Source: Parcubacteria group bacterium (lineage in GTDB: Bacteria > Patescibacteriota > Minisyncoccia > Phycocordibacterales > JACNGX01). From it: 32,683 bases of DNA. The translations under genes were made by a program, and so were the position numbers. The notes under the pieces were generated by a model. That model had not been told where the DNA came from. It saw nothing but the letters and a program-made list of their open reading frames with translations, and did not search any database. Of this stretch, positions 3,032-32,678 are shown one piece after another. The first letter of the stretch is position 1. Each line of letters opens with the position of its first letter. Where the stretch lies: the NCBI GenBank assembly GCA_014383885.1, contig JACNGX010000031.1, forward strand, positions 1-32,683, written 5' to 3'.

Positions 3032-3118
3032 GGAGAGTTGCCAGAGCGGTCGAATGGGGCACCCTGCTAAGGTGTTAGGCGAGCAATCGCCTCGAGGGTT
3101 CGAATCCCTCACTCTCCG
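3032..3118 (+). tRNA. tRNA-Ser(GCU)
   Basis: GGAGAGT...ACC CTGCTAA GGT...long variable arm...GAGGG TTCGAAT CCCTC ACTCTCC G; anticodon GCT. Confidence 0.92.
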
Positions 3119-3341
3119 CCCGTACAAAAATCAGCATCCTTTGGGATGCGATTTTTTGTTGGGCGGAGAGGAGGAAGCCGACTGCTCGGCTTCCGTGAGG
3201 GATTCGAAAAGGTTCTCCCATATTTTTGAGGAGCTTTGCTCCGAAAAAATGGGAAACCTGCACTGCTCCCGTAGGGAGAGAATCCCTCCGCACAAATAAT
3301 GAGCCGGACGGGAAACCGTCCGGCGATTATATTTGTGCAGG
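3116..3341 (+). repeat. repeat B, left copy (direct repeat with 10195..10418)
   Basis: Near-identical sequence CCGCCCGTACAAAAATCAGCATC...ATTATATTTGTGCAGG at both sites; several internal hairpins. Confidence 0.92.
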
Positions 3342-3604
3342 TGTTTTCTGGACGAAGTTCGAACATTGTATGAACAAAATCCACAGGATTTTGATTAACT
3401 TCGCACGCGCGGAGCGCGTGGTGGCTTTGAACCAAATCGTACGCTCGGATTTTGTGGCAATGCTGACAATCCGCGCCTCGCGCTCCTTCCAGTCGCGAAC
3501 CAAAACCAAAAATTTCCTTACCTTTCCTTTTAAAACGGCGGGGGGGTGCAGGGGGGAGCCGCAAAAAATTGAAAGGAAATTTTATGGTTTTGTTTTCGTC
3601 GCTT
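3340..3604 (+). repeat. repeat A, left copy (265-bp inverted repeat with 9932..10196)
   Basis: GGTGTTTTCTGGACGAAGTTCG...GTTTTGTTTTCGTCGCTT equals the reverse complement of 9932..10196 by eye. Confidence 0.95.
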
Positions 3605-3627
3605 ACAATTTGTTTGTGAAAATTCAA

Positions 3628-3675
3628 GATAACTGTTATCATTATATTGAAAGTGTAACACATCAGTATAATACT
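3628..3675 (+). promoter_or_regulatory. candidate control region of the RM operon
   Basis: Palindromes GATAACTGTTATC, GTGTAACAC, AGTATAATACT; the last contains TATAAT, 20 nt before the XRE gene start. Confidence 0.5.
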
Positions 3676-3692
3676 ATCAAATTATTGAAACC

Positions 3693-3899
3693 ATGGCAAA
3701 AGAAATAGAAATCGGCAAAAATATAAAAAAGTACCGCAACAAACTGGGTTTGTCGCAAGAAGACTTTGCAAAAAAGTCTGATGTGAAATATACGACACTG
3801 ACGAAAATTGAAAGCGGAGTGATAAAAAAACCATCCGTTATGGTTATGGCACAAATTGCCAAAACACTTGGCGTTTCGATTGAGGATTTAATAAAATAA
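3693..3899 (+). CDS. XRE/HTH_3 family regulator, possible controller (C) protein
   Basis: 68 aa: GKNIKKYRNKLGLSQEDFAKKSDVKYTTLTKIESGVIKKPSVMVMAQIAKTLGVSIEDL. Confidence 0.9.
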   Translation: MAKEIEIGKNIKKYRNKLGLSQEDFAKKSDVKYTTLTKIESGVIKKPSVMVMAQIAKTLGVSIEDLIK

Positions 3900-3901
3900 T
3901 T

Positions 3902-4858
3902 ATGACTACACAACAAACAATTACAAAACTAGCAGACGATTTGAACATCAACCGAATTTACGCTCGACATGTTTTTCATATTGCGGACAAAGAACAATTG
4001 TTTGAAGATGCTTCTCGCATTGTGAGCGAAAAACCAAAGCCATTTGTAAAATGGGTTGGTGGAAAAAGACAACTCCTCAAGCAATTTCGCGAAATGGGAT
4101 TGTACCCACCCGACGATTTTAATCCTCTTACTAACACATACTTCGAGCCATTTGTCGGTGGAGGTGCTGTCTTTTTTGACCTACTCCCCAAGAAAGCTGA
4201 GCTTTCTGATCTCAATAACGAACTCACCACGACATACAATGTTATAAAAACTGATGTTGACTCACTGATTAAATCACTCAAAAAGCACAAGTACGAAAAA
4301 GAGTATTATCTTAAAATACGAGCAAAAAATCCAAAAAAATTATCAGATGTTGAAGTTGCTTCACGTTTTATTTTCCTAAACCGCACAGGATTCAACGGCA
4401 TGTATCGTGTTAATAGCAAAGGAGGTTTCAATGTACCGTTCGGGAAATATACAAATCCGATAATCTGCGATGAGGAAAACTTACGCAAAGTATCTAAAGT
4501 ATTACAAAAAGTCACAGTAAAAGAACAAGACTACAAAGCAGTCCTAAAAAAAGCAAAAAAGGGCGATTTTGTATATTTTGATCCACCATACTATCCAGTA
4601 AGCAGGACTGCTTCTTTTACTTCATACACAGCAGACTCGTTTCTAGAAAAAGAACAAACAGAGCTAAGGGACACATTTGTGGAACTTCACAAGCGAGGTT
4701 GTTTTGTAATGCTCTCAAATTCAGACACTCCTTTTATCAATGAACTCTATTCAGGTATTAAAGGTGTGAAAGTATCGAAAGTATCTGCTGGACGCTCGAT
4801 AAACTCAAACGCTGCAAAACGTGGAAAGATTAACGAAGTATTAGTAACTAATTATTGA
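3902..4858 (+). CDS. D12-class N6-adenine DNA methyltransferase (Dam/DpnM type)
   Basis: FVKWVGGKRQLL, YFEPFVGGGAVFF, FIFLNRTGFNGMYRVNSKGGFNVPFG, DFVYFDPPYYPVS. Confidence 0.95.
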   Translation: MTTQQTITKLADDLNINRIYARHVFHIADKEQLFEDASRIVSEKPKPFVKWVGGKRQLLKQFREMGLYPPDDFNPLTNTYFEPFVGGGAVFFDLLPKKAELSDLNNELTTTYNVIKTDVDSLIKSLKKHKYEKEYYLKIRAKNPKKLSDVEVASRFIFLNRTGFNGMYRVNSKGGFNVPFGKYTNPIICDEENLRKVSKVLQKVTVKEQDYKAVLKKAKKGDFVYFDPPYYPVSRTASFTSYTADSFLEKEQTELRDTFVELHKRGCFVMLSNSDTPFINELYSGIKGVKVSKVSAGRSINSNAAKRGKINEVLVTNY

Positions 4859-5724
4859 ATGATATGAATAAAACATTTACCGAATTGGCGGACAGTTTCA
4901 AAAGTTCCATAAAAACATGGGATTACTTTGTGAACTGGGATAAGGTATCAACAAATGCTGCCAATCTTGAAATTTCCCTCAACAAACTCAACTACCTGCT
5001 CGGAAAAGAGAACTTGAAAGACGAGTTTGCAAAACTTTATGAATCAAATCCCGACATTGTAAAAGCGTTGCCTGTTTTACTTGCGGTGCGCGAAAATAAA
5101 TTGGAGGTTTTTGATAAAGTGACAAAAGATTCGGAGTTTTTTGATTTCGCCAATAGTGAAGATGGTGCAGAAAAGTATTTTGAGTTTCTTGAAAAATCTG
5201 GGCTTGCTCGTTTGTTCCAAAAAGACGGTATCAAAAACCTTGTTGATTATGCAATGGGTGTTGAAGTTGGCTTGGACAGTAACGGTCGCAAAAATCGTGG
5301 TGGCACGCTTATGGAAGAAATTGTTGAATCGTGCATCAAAGACTTTTCGGAGAGGCTTGGTTTTGAGTATCTTGCACAGGCACGAGCAACTGAGATAAAA
5401 GCAAAATGGGGTTACGAAATAAAGGTTGATAAATCAGAACGAAGTTTTGATTTCGCCGTTTACAATCCTCAAACTAAAAATCTCAAATTGTTTGAAACAA
5501 ACTTCTACAATGGTGGTGGCTCAAAACTGAAAGCGGTTTGTGGCGAATTCCGCAGTTTGTATGACGAACTAACAGAGCAAGATATTGATTTTGTTTGGAT
5601 CACTGACGGACTCGGCTGGGAGACAACAAAACGACCACTTGAAGAAACTTTTAATCACAATAACGGGCAAGTATTTAACCTCAACATGCTCGAGGACGGT
5701 GTTTTGGAGGAATTAACATGGTAA
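4855..5724 (+). CDS. DpnII/MboI-type restriction endonuclease (predicted GATC)
   Basis: GGTLMEEIVESCIKDF...KSERSFDFAVYNPQTKNLKLFETNFYNGGGSKLKAVCGEFRSLYDEL...FVWITDGLGWETTKRPLEETF; directly after a Dam-type methylase. TTG start at 4855 or ATG at 4864. Confidence 0.88.
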   Translation: MNDMNKTFTELADSFKSSIKTWDYFVNWDKVSTNAANLEISLNKLNYLLGKENLKDEFAKLYESNPDIVKALPVLLAVRENKLEVFDKVTKDSEFFDFANSEDGAEKYFEFLEKSGLARLFQKDGIKNLVDYAMGVEVGLDSNGRKNRGGTLMEEIVESCIKDFSERLGFEYLAQARATEIKAKWGYEIKVDKSERSFDFAVYNPQTKNLKLFETNFYNGGGSKLKAVCGEFRSLYDELTEQDIDFVWITDGLGWETTKRPLEETFNHNNGQVFNLNMLEDGVLEELTW

Positions 5725-5730
5725 AAAATA

Positions 5731-6480
5731 ATGACAAAGGAATTAAAACTACATCCCGATGAATTTGATCTAGAATGCACGACAGTGTGGGCTTTTCCTC
5801 GACGCGGAAATTGGGCAACGCATAAATCAGATTGGCGTGGCAACTGGTCGCCAGAAGTTGCACGCAATCTTATGCTTCGCTACTCAAAAGAGGGCGATGT
5901 TTTACTTGATCCAATGATTGGTGGCGGCACAACGGCAATCGAAGCAAAAATACTCAATCGCAATATCATTTGTTCGGATATAAACGATGTGGCACTCAAA
6001 CGCACGCGAGAGAGTCTGAAATTTGATACAGATAACAAAGCATGGCAAAAAGTTGTGAAACGCGATGCGCGTAACCTCGGCAAAGCTGAGAATGAAAGTA
6101 TTGACTTCATTCTCACGCACCCGCCCTACGCCGATATTATCAAATATAGCGAGGGAGAAATTGACGAAGATCTTTCAAATATTCACGAGCTAGACGAGTT
6201 TGCAGATGAAATGGAGAAAGTAGCAAAAGAATTGTATCGAGTCCTGAAACCTGGAAAATTTTGTGCAATTTTGATTGGCGACACGCGCCGCAAGAAAATG
6301 TATCAACCACTTGCGTATAAAGTGATGGATCGTTTTTTGAATGCGGGTTTTGAACTTAAAGAAGACATAATCAAACGACAATACAATTGCAAAGCTACAG
6401 GATTTTGGGTCAACAAATCAAAAGAGAGCAATTTCTTGCTCATTATGCACGAGCATTTGTTTGTGTTTCAAAAAATATGA
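5731..6480 (+). CDS. second DNA methyltransferase, N4/N6-type
   Basis: TVWAFPRRGNWATHKSDWRGNWSPEVARNLMLRYSKEGDVLLDPMIGGGTTAIEAK and FILTHPPYADIIKYS. Confidence 0.85.
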   Translation: MTKELKLHPDEFDLECTTVWAFPRRGNWATHKSDWRGNWSPEVARNLMLRYSKEGDVLLDPMIGGGTTAIEAKILNRNIICSDINDVALKRTRESLKFDTDNKAWQKVVKRDARNLGKAENESIDFILTHPPYADIIKYSEGEIDEDLSNIHELDEFADEMEKVAKELYRVLKPGKFCAILIGDTRRKKMYQPLAYKVMDRFLNAGFELKEDIIKRQYNCKATGFWVNKSKESNFLLIMHEHLFVFQKI

Positions 6481-8477
6481 TTACAAAAACTTCACAATTC
6501 AAAGAACTGTCAAAAAATAGGTTTATAATATTTTTTGGTTTTGTTGCGGTTTTTGTTTTATCCAATTACATTTTTACGGGAAGTTTGTTGCCGAGTACAG
6601 AAACAAAAGATCTGTGGTTCTATTCAGGGCTGTTTATGGCAATTTTTTCTATCTTGTTTATTGAGCCATACTATACATCTCCCAAAAATGTAATCACAAA
6701 CGCAATACCTCTTTTACTTGTTTTTCTGGCAATAAAAAACCTTTTTGAAAATCCTGTTTTTTGGTGGTTCGCAGCTTCTGTATTAATTACTTTGATTGTT
6801 GCTTCTGTGATATCTATGTCGACAGAAGACAAAAACAAAAGCCCTGAGCATTGGAAAAATAAACTTTCGGAGCTTCTCAAAAAGTGGGTTGTAATTATTG
6901 GACAGGGCAAGGTTTTATATTCGTCTGTTTTTGTGTACTTCTTACTTACATACTATTCGATACAAAGTTTTTATACTTTGTCACTTTTCATTTTATGGTT
7001 CTTTATAGTATCCATAAATCCCAAGAGTATTAGAAGCACCTTTGCGATTTCAAGAAAAGAACATGATAAAAATGCACTTGGGGAAATATTCGGAGTCCAA
7101 TCAAGAAAAATCTTCCTAGTCAAATTATTTGAAGACCGCAAGGATATTAAGAAGTTTGATATTGTGGAATTTCAATACTCCATGCAAGAATCAGATGATT
7201 TTCTTATGTCTGGGATTGTTTTCGATACTTATCTGCTCAATCAAGAGAAGTGGGCAAAAGTTTTGCAATTGGGCAGAATAGGAGAATCAAAAGTTAAATC
7301 GGACAAAAACATTGTATACAAAGTGTCAAATAAAGAACGAGTAACCGAACTTGAGAAAGAACTAAACACCGATAATTTTGTTGGTGTTGTTATAGAGAGG
7401 TCAAATATCGGAAAAATAAAGTTTGAATACTCAAAGAAACAGGATGATTTACAAGAGGGTGATTTAATCGAACTCAAGACAAACGGCAAGCGATTGTTTT
7501 ACCAGGTTGTGAATGGAGTTACTGAAAAAGAAAGTCTCGAACAACGAAATGAAACGGGTTTCATTAAAGGCGAAGCAATTCAGCTTGGGGAATGGAAAAA
7601 TAATGAGTTATCATTTCAAAAATACGGCTGGGTTCCCTCAATTAACACACCTATTTTCAAAGCGAACACTACCGATATTGAGGTGGCAAATTTTGAATAT
7701 CCTGAATACAAACTAGGCGTAATTCCAAACACTACTTTACCGTCTGTAATAAATCTTTCAGAAGCGGTTAGTTACCATATGGCAGTCTTAGGGGTTACAG
7801 GCTCTGGAAAATCTTTCATTACTCGTGAAGTAATTAGACAATTACAAAACGATACGAAAATTATTTGTGTTGATTTTACAGGTGAATGGAAAAAAGAATT
7901 CGATTCAGAAAGTATTGAGAATTTTGACACTATCGACAATGCAATAGCAAATGACAAAATATCTGTAATTGAGTTGAATGATGTAAGCAACACCACTCAA
8001 TCATTAGAAGAAACGAACAAAAAACTTCAAGAAATATTTGCATACGCAAAGGAAAATGAAGATTGCAAGAAAATATGTTTGGTTTTGGAAGAAGCTCACA
8101 CCATTGTTCCTGAAACAACATTTTTAGGCGACTATGGCGATTATAGTGCGAACAAGGCACTTGTTAATAAAATGAGCCAGATTGCATTGCAGGGCAGAAA
8201 ATATAATGTCGGTCTTTTGGTGCTTGCGCAAAGAACAGCAAATGTATCAAAAACTGTTTTAACACAATGCAATACAATTGTTTGCTTTCAAGCATTTGAT
8301 GAAACAGGATTCAATTTTTTAAGTAACTACATCGGAAAAGATTTAGTCCAAGCAATGCCAAATCTATCGCAATATCATGCAATTATTGTTGGCAAAGCCT
8401 CAAAATCAAATATTCCAATGATTGTCGATCTGACACGAGAACAAAAAGTTGAAAAAGACACAGAGGAAACAGATTAA
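6477..8477 (+). CDS. HerA/DUF87-like P-loop ATPase with N-terminal transmembrane segments
   Basis: Several N-terminal hydrophobic stretches; Walker A GVTGSGKS, Walker B KICLVLEEAH, ALQGRKYNVGLLVLAQR; ATG overlaps upstream TGA (ATGA). Confidence 0.85.
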   Translation: MITKTSQFKELSKNRFIIFFGFVAVFVLSNYIFTGSLLPSTETKDLWFYSGLFMAIFSILFIEPYYTSPKNVITNAIPLLLVFLAIKNLFENPVFWWFAASVLITLIVASVISMSTEDKNKSPEHWKNKLSELLKKWVVIIGQGKVLYSSVFVYFLLTYYSIQSFYTLSLFILWFFIVSINPKSIRSTFAISRKEHDKNALGEIFGVQSRKIFLVKLFEDRKDIKKFDIVEFQYSMQESDDFLMSGIVFDTYLLNQEKWAKVLQLGRIGESKVKSDKNIVYKVSNKERVTELEKELNTDNFVGVVIERSNIGKIKFEYSKKQDDLQEGDLIELKTNGKRLFYQVVNGVTEKESLEQRNETGFIKGEAIQLGEWKNNELSFQKYGWVPSINTPIFKANTTDIEVANFEYPEYKLGVIPNTTLPSVINLSEAVSYHMAVLGVTGSGKSFITREVIRQLQNDTKIICVDFTGEWKKEFDSESIENFDTIDNAIANDKISVIELNDVSNTTQSLEETNKKLQEIFAYAKENEDCKKICLVLEEAHTIVPETTFLGDYGDYSANKALVNKMSQIALQGRKYNVGLLVLAQRTANVSKTVLTQCNTIVCFQAFDETGFNFLSNYIGKDLVQAMPNLSQYHAIIVGKASKSNIPMIVDLTREQKVEKDTEETD

Positions 8478-8540
8478 TTTTTTAAGGGAGTTCCGCTTGC
8501 GCGCGCATGGGTGGGTTGGGGCAAGCGCAACATGATTTGT

Positions 8541-8568
8541 TTGTGCTATCCGTTGTGTGATAGCACAA
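8541..8568. repeat. 10-bp inverted repeat hairpin
   Basis: TTGTGCTATC-cgttgtgt-GATAGCACAA. Confidence 0.75.
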
Positions 8569-8593
8569 CCATTTTCCTTTTCGGTACAATTAC

Positions 8594-9705
8594 GGGGCTT
8601 TGTTGAATAATTCCCGCTGACAAACGGAATCCCCCGTTTGTATCCGGGATTTATGCAACAACGTAGCTTTCCGGCATACCAAGCATCGTTATCCGATTGA
8701 GTGCCTTCAATCGGAGGAGAAGCGAAGAACGCTGATTTTCGAATGTTCGTGCCGATACCGTATCCCCGAAGACGGTCTTGTATCGAAACATCGCGGTTTC
8801 CGACAGACTCCGACGATGATACCCGCTCTCCTCTTTCCATCCCGATCGTCCATGCTTCCTGATCTGCCTCAGATTCTCATCTCATATATGACGATCTCCT
8901 TTTGTATTCCCGTGTTTCCAGATCTTCGCGTTCTTCTGCGGAGGGATGGTGAAAGTCGATACGTCCCGTTCTTTGAGTGCTAAATAGCACTGCCTCGTAT
9001 CATAGGCCCCGTCTCCGGAGCACTGGTCGATGTTCGTCTCTTCGGGAATGTGATCCAAAAGTACCGGGAGTATGGTTCCGTCATGGACATCGTTTCTGGT
9101 CACGTCTCCGACGATGATGTCTCCCGTCTTCTCGTCGGCGTCGATATGTAGCTTCAGCCAACTCCGGCGTTTACTCCATCCGTGCTTGCGCACTTTCCAC
9201 TCTCCTTCTCCACACACCTTGATACCCGTCGAATCGACCACGAGATGCAGGTCTTCTCGAATCGGACGGATACGGATATCGACGTTCAGTGTCTTGCCTC
9301 GGAGGGAGAGCGTGGAGTAGTCAGGAGACTGGCATGAGGAATCGAGTCTTGCAAGGATATCCGACATCAACCCCTCGGTCGACCGGAGTGGGAGACGGAG
9401 GATTTGTCCTAAAGTAAGCGTCGTCTCAATGGCGATATCGCTGAACTTCTTCGGTCTTCCTCTCTTCTTGTCCCGTTCCTGCTCTTCCCACTGTTGTAGT
9501 GCCTCATCGGTAATATGGAAGATAAGTCTTCCTCGGTTTACCAATGCTTCATTATATTCCTTCCAGTTCCTGACCTTGTACGTTTTCTTCTTCCCATTCT
9601 TCTTTTTCCCTTCTTTTGCTTTTTTTGGCATAGCGTTTATATTGCTTTTGCCTTCATTATAGCGGAAGAAGAGAGAATTGGGAGGGGGAATTATTCAACA
9701 ATGCC
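8594..9705 (-). mobile_element. IS5-family (IS903-like) insertion sequence
   Basis: Terminal IRs GGCTTTGTTGAATAATTCCC (8596..8615) and its near-complement GGGAATTATTCAACAATGCC (9686..9705); 9-bp TACAATTAC on both sides; IS5-type transposase inside. Confidence 0.9.
8651..9631 (-). pseudogene. IS5-family transposase interrupted by an in-frame TGA
   Basis: RGRPKKFSDIAIETTL...VVDSTGIKVCGEGEWKVRKHGWSKRRSWLKLHIDADEKTGDI...GDRHI, TGA at 8882..8884, then same frame DENLRQIRKHGRSGWKEESGYHRRSLSETAMFRYKTVFGDTVSARTFENQRSSLLLRLKALNRITMLGMPESYVVA*. Confidence 0.92.
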
Positions 9706-9931
9706 TACAATTACCACAAAACTCTTATCGAAGCCGACGAGCGAGCCACGCGAACACCGAGCAGGCATTGGCGAAGTATGAGCCAGCCAGTGTGAGGTAT
9801 TTCTCGTGAGCAAGCGGACTGACGATTTACCACAGGCGTAGCGCCTCGGGTCGGCGCAAGCGACGGAGAAAAAGGCGACTTACTGCCACCGTCATGCTAT
9901 ATTTTATTTACAAGCCTTTTTTGGAGTAGTG

Positions 9932-10196
9932 AAGCGACGAAAACAAAACCATAAAATTTCCTTTCAATTTTTTGCGGCTCCCCCCTGCACCCCCCCGCCG
10001 TTTTAAAAGGAAAGGTAAGGAAATTTTTGGTTTTGGTTCGCGACTGGAAGGAGCGCGAGGCGCGGATTGTCAGCATTGCCACAAAATCCGAGCGTACGAT
10101 TTGGTTCAAAGCCACCACGCGCTCCGCGCGTGCGAAGTTAATCAAAATCCTGTGGATTTTGTTCATACAATGTTCGAACTTCGTCCAGAAAACACC
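9932..10196 (-). repeat. repeat A, right copy
   Basis: Reverse complement of 3340..3604, same length. Confidence 0.95.
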
Positions 10197-10418
10197 GCCC
10201 GTACAAAAATCAGCATCTTTTGAGATGCGATTTTTGTTGAGCGGAGAGGAGGAAGCCGACTGCTCGGCTTCCGTGAGGGATTCGAAAAGGTTCTCCCATA
10301 TTTTTGAGGAGCTTTGCTCCGAAAAAATGGGAAACCTGCACTGCTCCCGTAGGGAGAGAATCCCTCCGCACAAATAATGAGCCGGGCGCATGTCGCCCGG
10401 CGATTATATTTGTGCAGG
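10195..10418 (+). repeat. repeat B, right copy
   Basis: Direct copy of 3116..3341 with paired differences in hairpin stems. Confidence 0.92.
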
Positions 10419-10436
10419 AGAGTGAGGGATTCGAAC
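10417..10436 (-). repeat. inverted 20-nt copy of the tRNA-Ser(GCU) 3' end
   Basis: GGAGAGTGAGGGATTCGAAC is the exact reverse complement of 3098..3117. Confidence 0.85.
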
Positions 10437-10539
10437 GGCGGAGCAGCGGGTCCCCGCTTGCGGGGCTGCGAGCCGCGTCCAGGAGTACTTAGCGGATTGC
10501 GAGCTTTAGCGAAGCAATACGCTTAGTAACTCCGGGACG

Positions 10540-10577
10540 AATCCCTCCGCAAAACAATGAGCCGGGCGCATGTCGCT
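10540..10577 (+). repeat. third, partial copy of part of repeat B
   Basis: GAATCCCTCCGCAAAACAATGAGCCGGGCGCATGTCGC vs GAATCCCTCCGCACAAATAATGAGCCGGGCGCATGTCGC in the right B copy. Confidence 0.8.
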
Positions 10578-19289: not shown

Positions 19290-20150
19290 ATGCTTTCACT
19301 CCGCGAAGCAATTCAGAAAGCCGAGAAAGAAGGTCGCGCCATCGGACACTTTAATATCACCACGATTGATATGGTGCACGCTATTGTGCGAGCAGCGCAA
19401 AAGGTGGGTGATCCGGTGATTATTGGCGTCTCCGAAGGGGAGCGGGATTTTTTTGGCGTGAGGCAAATTGCTGCCGTAGTGGAAAGCGTGCGAGAGGAGA
19501 CAAAACATCCGGTGTATCTCAATGCCGATCATACCTATTCTGTGGAACGGGTGAAAGAGGTGATTGATGCCGGGTTTGATGCGGTGATTTACGATGGCGC
19601 AAAACTCTCGCTTGATGAGAATATTGCCAATGGAAAAGCGTGTGTGGATTATGCTCGTGCATCAGGACGTGATGTGCTTATTGAGGGAGAACTTGGCTAT
19701 ATTGGCTCGTCGTCGAAGATGCTTGATGAGATTCCTGAGGGAGTGTCGCTTGAGCATTTGACGACACCTGAACAAGCGGCTCGCTATGCGAAAGAGACGG
19801 GCGCTGATTTGCTTTCCGCGGCGGTTGGGAATATTCATGGTATGTTGAAGCACGCCAAAAATCCGAACCTCAACATTGAGCGGATTAAAGAGGTGCGCGA
19901 AGCGGCGGGGATCCCGCTTGTGCTTCATGGTGGTTCGGGTGTGTCGGACGAAGACTTTATTGCAGCAATAAAGGCAGGGATTAGCACGGTACATGTGAGC
20001 ACGGAGCTTCGTCGTGCATATCGGAAAGAAATTCAGGAGACGCTCGTAGAAAATCCGGAAGAAGTCGCGCCATATCGCTATTTGCGCCCGGCAGGGGAAG
20101 CGGTGGAGAGAATTGTGGAAGAGAGGATGCGGTTGTTTGGAGGGAAGTAA
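19290..20150 (+). CDS. fba: class II fructose-bisphosphate aldolase
   Basis: GHFNITT, NADHTYS, EGELGYIG, VLHGGSGVSDEDF, VHVSTELR. Confidence 0.88.
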   Translation: MLSLREAIQKAEKEGRAIGHFNITTIDMVHAIVRAAQKVGDPVIIGVSEGERDFFGVRQIAAVVESVREETKHPVYLNADHTYSVERVKEVIDAGFDAVIYDGAKLSLDENIANGKACVDYARASGRDVLIEGELGYIGSSSKMLDEIPEGVSLEHLTTPEQAARYAKETGADLLSAAVGNIHGMLKHAKNPNLNIERIKEVREAAGIPLVLHGGSGVSDEDFIAAIKAGISTVHVSTELRRAYRKEIQETLVENPEEVAPYRYLRPAGEAVERIVEERMRLFGGK

Positions 20151-21490: not shown

Positions 21491-21514
21491 GGAGTTGCGA
21501 GTTATGAATGCAAA

Positions 21515-21545
21515 AAAGCGGCGGCACCGAAGGTGCCGCCGCTTT
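21515..21545 (+). terminator. terminator hairpin, identical to the one at 23185
   Basis: AAAGCGGCGGCACC-gaa-GGTGCCGCCGCTTT. Confidence 0.8.
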
Positions 21546-21617
21546 GTATATCCGCATGTTTTATGCACTCGTCAACTCTCCTTGTCGGTGTGCTTTTCTG
21601 GTACAATAAGGTGGTCT

Positions 21618-23143: not shown

Positions 23144-23184
23144 GTTAAGTGCGACTACGCCACGCTCTAAAGGAGAAGAAAGAA

Positions 23185-23215
23185 AAAGCGGCGGCACCGA
23201 AGGTGCCGCCGCTTT
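23185..23215 (+). terminator. terminator hairpin, identical to the one at 21515
   Basis: AAAGCGGCGGCACC-gaa-GGTGCCGCCGCTTT. Confidence 0.75.
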
Positions 23216-23240
23216 GTATCTATTTCTAAATCTTAATATG

Positions 23241-32524: not shown

Positions 32525-32579
32525 TACATTCTCCGATGTGTATCCCGAAGGGATACGGTTTTTTGAATCGTTACTTCTC

Positions 32580-32678
32580 CACTCCCCACCTTTAAATACG
32601 AAGACATGTGGTACACTTGTCACATATGCCACTCCTCACCTTTAAATACGAAGACATGTGGTACACTTGTCACATATG
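32580..32678 (+). repeat. 50-bp tandem duplication containing promoter-like sequence and ATG
   Basis: CACTCC(C/T)CACCTTTAAATACGAAGACATGTGGTACACTTGTCACATATG(C/G) occurs twice with 50-bp period. Confidence 0.9.

Follow-up and report, generated by a model that had tools for sequence, protein, structure and literature searches.

The window, by which we mean the whole stretch of 32,683 nucleotides analysed, is contig 11 of a 648-kb Parcubacteria group genome. It carries two copies of a sequence, termed B, that belongs to a widespread family of hairpin elements matched to the 3′ ends of the tRNA genes they adjoin. The family is previously unrecorded as far as we have searched, and the literature covered, which mostly excludes subscription papers and preprints, holds no description of elements with such tRNA arms. 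Our best explanation as a whole, to which we assign a probability of about 0.5, is that B is a copy of a structured element of roughly 180 bp that resides at tRNA 3′ ends, moves as a folded strand, and has its arms rewritten to fit the local tRNA.

Members of the family, hereafter called units, follow a common layout. The 3′ end of a tRNA gene is followed by a linker hairpin, an inverted copy of that tRNA's own 3′ end, a structured core, and a direct copy of the tRNA 3′ end. There are at least three core types within this frame, and the window has type I twice and type II once. B adjoins the 3′ end of a tRNA-Ser gene, and its relatives adjoin tRNA genes of 36 anticodons. Among 147 genomes from the order, a similarity search found relatives of B in 48, and R1, a covariance model built from 26 type-I relatives, has matches in 103, reaching at least 24 in a genome. 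In other orders of the class, 11 genomes match as well, and most of the loci read there have the same frame and side hairpin. A same-strand tRNA is located within 1.5 kb upstream of 100 of 110 type-I cores, and within 60 nt for 78 of the 110. The exceptions without an upstream tRNA, among those inspected, are contig ends, an intron-split tRNA, and array members.

Several loci depart from the simple arrangement. At L157 (upstream of 836, minus strand), the tRNA is split by an apparent intron and was missed by ARAGORN, and the unit lies directly after the 3′ exon. At tRNA-Gly(TCC) (L244) and tRNA-Phe(GAA) (L252) of one genome (G001), a longer palindromic repeat with ends CCAGCCCTACTTTCAT stands in place of the linker hairpin, and tRNA arms still flank it on both sides. 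At L026 (400-950), the 5′ half of tRNA-Ser (GGGAGAGGTGCTAGAGCGGTCGAATAG) is repeated upstream of the intact gene with hairpin-rich sequence between the two, and L022 is similar.

The two B copies in the window span positions 3116-3341 (copy 1) and 10195-10419 (copy 2) and lie 7.08 kb apart. All features of both copies are on the plus strand. Copy 1 begins at the end of tRNA-Ser(GCT) (3032-3120, plus strand; identified by ARAGORN and from the sequence), whose 3′ end TTCGAATCCCTCACTCTCCGCC serves as template for the arms. A terminator-like linker hairpin (h1, CCGCCCGTACAAAAATCAGCATCC-TTT-GGGATGCGATTTTTTGTTGGGCGG; 3116-3166) leads into the acceptor arm GGGCGGAGAG (3161-3170), which is the reverse complement of the tRNA acceptor 3′ strand plus the first trailing bases. 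Next is a side hairpin (GGAAGCCGA-CTGC-TCGGCTTCC; 3173-3194) with a loop of the ACTGCT type, seen also in units from other orders, and then the T-arm copy GAGGGATTCGAA (3197-3208), the reverse complement of the tRNA T-stem 3′ strand and T-loop, which matches the adjacent tRNA at 12 of 12 positions. The type-I core hairpin (AGGTTCTCCCATATTTTTGAGGAGC...GCTCCGAAAAAATGGGAAACCT; 3210-3259) carries tandem G.A mismatches and is followed by a small hairpin (CTCCC-GTA-GGGAG; 3266-3278), whose stem covaries freely around a near-invariant GTA triloop. The right arm GAATCCCTCCGC (3280-3291) is a partly deleted direct copy of the tRNA T-stem/acceptor 3′ strand, and a second linker hairpin with a GA/GA internal loop (h2; 3290-3338) completes the copy.

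Copy 2 has h1, acceptor arm, side hairpin, T-arm copy, type-I core, right arm, and h2 in this order. A type-II unit comes directly after it (10414-10550, plus strand), of a type found also at other tRNAs, with the T-arm copy GAGGGATTCGAA (10424-10435), a core that includes GAGTACTTAG and CTTAGTAACTC, and the right arm CGAATCCCTCCGC (10538-10550). This unit is followed by a truncated third copy of h2 (AAAACAATGAGCCGGGCGCATGTCGC; 10551-10575, plus strand), whose hairpin letters are identical to those of h2 in copy 2. Elsewhere in the window, an identical 37-nt hairpin AAAAAGCGGCGGCACCGAAGGTGCCGCCGCTTTGTAT is found at 21513-21549 and 23183-23219, 1.67 kb apart, and related repeats of 73-80 nt are located at 20137, 20200, 23041, 23105, and 32034. 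The end of the window (32579-32678) holds 50-bp repeats CCACTCCYCACCTTTAAATACGAAGACATGTGGTACACTTGTCACATATG as a tandem pair.

The arms of a unit nearly always fit the local tRNA. The inverted arm is the reverse complement of nucleotides 54-73 of the adjacent tRNA, and is often split by the side hairpin at the acceptor/T-stem junction. Its T-stem letters match the unit's own tRNA at 5/5 positions in 62 of 74 units, as against 3% for other tRNAs, and its acceptor letters match at 7/7 positions in 41 of the 74, as against 0.4%. T-arm positions are Watson-Crick with the adjacent tRNA in 869 of 888 cases, and the variable T-loop letters match as well. Beyond the core, a direct copy of the T-stem and acceptor with at least 10 of 12 letters is found for 47 of the 74 units (control, 1/74). 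A census of T-arm copies that is independent of the core detects them at 12 of 36 tRNAs in the window's genome and at 23 of 39 in a congener (4/75 with another tRNA's letters as control). The original prediction recognized the structure of B, but the decisive fact, the match of the arms to the adjacent tRNA 3′ end, had gone unnoticed.

The fold of the B family is real and conserved. The original prediction that B is composed of structured elements had proposed to look in more copies for stem changes that lack compensation; this comparison was run, and compensatory changes in about 100 relatives bear the prediction out. In an alignment of 108 distinct units, which is fitted to the structure and whose sample was chosen with a model that includes the T-arm columns, compensatory double changes occur at 32 of 32 stem pairs and 97.3% of cells are paired; the safer figure, from an independent MAFFT alignment of the 26 type-I units, is 23 of 32 pairs. 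The covariation score for the 108 units is 0.76; shuffles score 0.17, with 0 of 500 reaching the observed value, and slid controls do not exceed 0.13. The folding energy of B corresponds to z = -10 as RNA (plus strand) and z = -12 as DNA (minus strand). Only tRNA families reach the Rfam gathering score in the window, units at six loci gave no convincing Rfam match, and the phage and plasmid record collections hold no DNA similar to the units.

The differences between the two B copies are few. About 158 nt in the middle of B are 99% identical, and both hairpins for which pair-preserving differences had been noted are present at the stated coordinates. The first such difference replaces C3139/G3144 in h1 of copy 1 with T10218/A10223 in copy 2, and the second replaces A3308/T3319 in h2 with G10386/C10396. 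The prediction had overlooked one stem change without compensation (G3162 to A10240), the deletion in copy 2 of T3152 and of G3310, and, in hairpin 2 of that copy, a stem shortened at the top and a changed loop. The full tally comprises two compensated stem pairs, one uncompensated stem change, and a remainder of indels and loop letters. By themselves, the two copies are insufficient as proof of selection. They probably record divergence between lineages, and this would be the reason their differences respect the fold. The h2 letters of copy 2 recur at 10551-10575, so that its right part appears to be the resident sequence and the h2 of copy 1 to be an import.

Conserved irregularities point to the strand that folds. 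On the tRNA-sense strand, the core of 74 of 110 units carries a tandem G.A mismatch, which is replaced in about 13 units by two Watson-Crick pairs (TA/TA, CA/TG, TG/CA, or CG/CG). G.T mispairs on this strand outnumber A.C mispairs by 30 to 9 (one G.U-rich pair excluded), where the p-value of 0.001 serves as a guide only, since related sequences are not independent. Given that the opposite strand would carry T.C mismatches, the tandem G.A and the excess of G.T indicate that the folding strand is the tRNA-sense strand. The overall wobble content of the units is 1.8%, versus 3-5% in tRNA stems at the same loci. Thus, a single strand of tRNA sense folds, and the low G.T counts and strand bias fit RNA as well as single-stranded DNA.

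The cores are related in a manner that does not follow the tRNAs. The nearest core relative is in the same genome for 33 of 63 units (4.4 expected), and in no case is it at the same tRNA in another genome. Vertical inheritance along with each tRNA is unsupported by this distribution. Rather, the element spreads or is homogenised within a genome across unrelated tRNAs.

A functional RNA has several characteristics in common with the units. Under this explanation, each unit is a structured 3′ trailer of a pre-tRNA, a mimic of an acceptor/T-arm minihelix with a role in the control of tRNA 3′ processing, stability, or termination, and the arms match because they need to pair with that tRNA or to compete with its folding. 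The position of the unit on the tRNA's strand, the prevalence of G.T over A.C and the conserved tandem G.A on that strand, the strong folding, and a right arm that recreates a tRNA-like 3′ end are all consistent with such a role. However, units are patchily present both within a genome and between congeners (12/36 versus 23/39 tRNAs), and 32 of 74 linker hairpins are terminator-like and would stop transcription before the unit. The grouping of cores by genome and never by tRNA, together with the existence of units in arrays away from tRNAs (L021 and L023), further dampens our enthusiasm for this explanation, which we consider unlikely.

The two B copies flank a restriction-modification cassette. 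A left terminal inverted repeat of 265 bp (3340-3604, plus strand), whose outer end GGTGTTTTCTGGACGAAGTTCGAA is similar to a tRNA 3′ end in reverse complement, is 100% complementary to a right repeat of the same length (9932-10196, minus strand). Between them are genes for a D12 DNA methyltransferase, a DpnII endonuclease, a second DNA methylase, and a HerA-like ATPase (3902-8477, plus strand), as well as a DDE transposase (PF13737/PF01609; 8882-9631, minus strand). Inverted pairs of the same cassette ends flank other cargo in the order, including HpaII, MvaI/BcnI, and EcoRI-type systems, candidate defence genes, glyoxalase-like genes, and genes without known function. The cassettes of this family (window 3340-10196; L279-L288 and L293) have near-perfect terminal inverted repeats of 95-345 bp, and their cargo is often a type II restriction-modification system or candidate defence genes. 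A transposase was not recognised in most of the cassettes scanned. Some cassettes carry fused open frames, such as RadC with a C5 DNA methylase (L280:1547-3217) and a LexA/S24 peptidase with a DNA methylase (L281:1460-3322).

Another explanation is an integron-like system in which the tRNA 3′ end serves as attI, the units serve as attC sites, and the genes between them are cassettes moved by a serine or tyrosine recombinase. At one locus (L021), five successive genes of the same orientation are separated by units beside tRNA-Ser. Moreover, the outer cassette end GTTCGAA...CACCGC resembles a tRNA-Ser 3′ end and stands in place of the tRNA end before several units, and in 14 places, where 0.8 are expected, a large serine recombinase domain lies at a fixed distance of 0.8-1.2 kb from a cassette end. 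However, most units have no attached gene, and seven unit-rich genomes (G004, G012, G015, G017, G023, G026, and G042) lack a match to PF07508, which indicates that the large serine recombinase is not needed for units. The only tyrosine recombinase found in the window's genome (PF00589) is Xer-like, with SAM-like N-terminal and catalytic domains, and is encoded beside an exonuclease gene. An integron-like system therefore has a small chance of being correct. The genes of the L021 array (G001:C1:153500-161500) code for an SDR, a methyltransferase, and three proteins without family, one of them lipoprotein-like, with units and hairpins in between; two of the genes have a common left end with a TTGACA promoter-like box.

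Among the candidates tested by distribution, there is no enzyme whose occurrence explains the elements. Extra tyrosine recombinases were rejected as the engine because one genome (G003) has five matches yet no unit. The Y1/RAYT transposase is not a sufficient engine, as it correlates loosely with unit number and 7 of 39 unit-rich genomes have no Y1 match. Reverse transcriptase shows no correlation with the units (p = 0.18). Twelve RAYT loci of the order have no unit, and those read carry other hairpins. At L203-L213, RAYT-type Y1 transposase genes are flanked by their own short palindromes, for example CTTGGAGGTTCAACCTCCAA or TTGGACATCCGATGTCCAAC. A recombinase may recognise the folded strand, as originally suggested.

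Although the units resemble several known systems, each comparison breaks down in some respect. Like the attC sites used by IntI, they are imperfect palindromes with conserved irregularities and little conservation of stem sequence, and they form gene arrays in one genome. We also count as a likeness the recognition of a folded single strand by its structure, which for the units we infer. Unlike attC sites, their arms copy the adjacent tRNA 3′ end, and many tRNAs are occupied rather than one attI. No integron integrase was found in the window's genome with PF00589, whose only match there is XerC/D-like. The RYYYAAC and GTTRRRY boxes were not recognised by eye, and the outermost conserved core letters (GGTT..AACC) are in the opposite order.

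REP/BIME elements mobilized with RAYT (Y1) are likewise short non-coding palindromes with many intergenic copies, but the twelve RAYT loci of the order lack units, and REP/BIME elements offer no counterpart to the tRNA-matched arms. Islands and phages that integrate at tRNAs also occupy the 3′ end and leave a direct copy of it on the far side (attL/attR). In contrast, the units are about 180 bp with no room for an integrase gene, have an extra inverted copy of the tRNA end, and accept any tRNA within one genome. MITEs share the small size, non-coding nature, inverted ends, and high copy number, but the terminal inverted repeats of the units are not fixed and copy the target. A retroviral primer binding site likewise corresponds, in reverse complement, to some 18 nt at the 3′ end of a tRNA, whereas the inverted arm is split by a hairpin and adjoins the gene for the same tRNA, and reverse transcriptase does not track the units.

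A pair of congener units illustrates how the arms may come to fit. The units of tRNA-Arg(TCT) and tRNA-Ser(TGA) have cores identical at 106 of 112 positions and near-identical side hairpins, and in each unit the acceptor arm, T-arm copy, and right arm fit its own tRNA. Thus, two arm segments that flank an unchanged hairpin were altered, which suggests that arms are rewritten locally. In 13 of 13 cases in which the inverted arm departs from the tRNA sequence, the right arm agrees with the tRNA. It was therefore duplicated directly from the tRNA, and a chain in which the tRNA is copied into the inverted arm and the inverted arm into the right arm is rejected. A different hairpin usually follows the right arm; in several cases it is a clear terminator, probably the original one of the tRNA. 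At tRNAs that lack a unit, a terminator alone is often present, and these positions fit insertion between tRNA and terminator. No excised form, clean pair of empty and filled alleles, or transposition event was seen.

Mutation without function, in which arms and stems are by-products of single-stranded DNA palindromes kept perfect by template switching (quasipalindrome correction), would account for the exact Watson-Crick arms, the few wobble pairs, and the joint conversion of the arms on both sides of the side hairpin, but it is improbable because it would erase bulges and mismatches, yet the tandem G.A and core bulges persist from genus to genus (74/110), the GTA triloop hardly varies, and the spread of the core is left unexplained.

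We favor a mobile element that acts as a folded single strand of tRNA sense, and lean toward single-stranded DNA as in integron attC sites. The tRNA 3′ end would pair with the inverted arm to form one long hairpin from which the side hairpin bulges out. A structure-specific enzyme might insert the element between the tRNA and its terminator, and this insertion would duplicate the tRNA end to produce the right arm. Copying of the recipient tRNA end across the long hairpin would rewrite the inverted arms and leave the side hairpin and core untouched. The copying step is proposed from the pattern of arms, which could also result from strong selection for pairing. The DpnII-type cassette with its 265-bp inverted ends may have entered the array later and brought its B copy from a related lineage, which would account for the compensated changes between the two B copies.

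tRNA genes are classic landing sites of mobile DNA, and each integrase normally recognises one tRNA. In the very small genomes studied here, a single core accompanies tRNAs of 36 anticodons, and its arms fit the neighbouring tRNA in nearly all cases. The chances are roughly even that the units represent a class of mobile elements that builds its target-recognition arms from the target, copying the tRNA 3′ end on arrival so that one core can colonise most tRNA genes. The family offers about 100 natural variants for structure work, along with the R1 covariance model that detects it. The finding would be new in either case, be it a mobile element that re-templates the arms with which it recognises a target or a structured RNA that goes with a large share of the tRNA genes in these bacteria.
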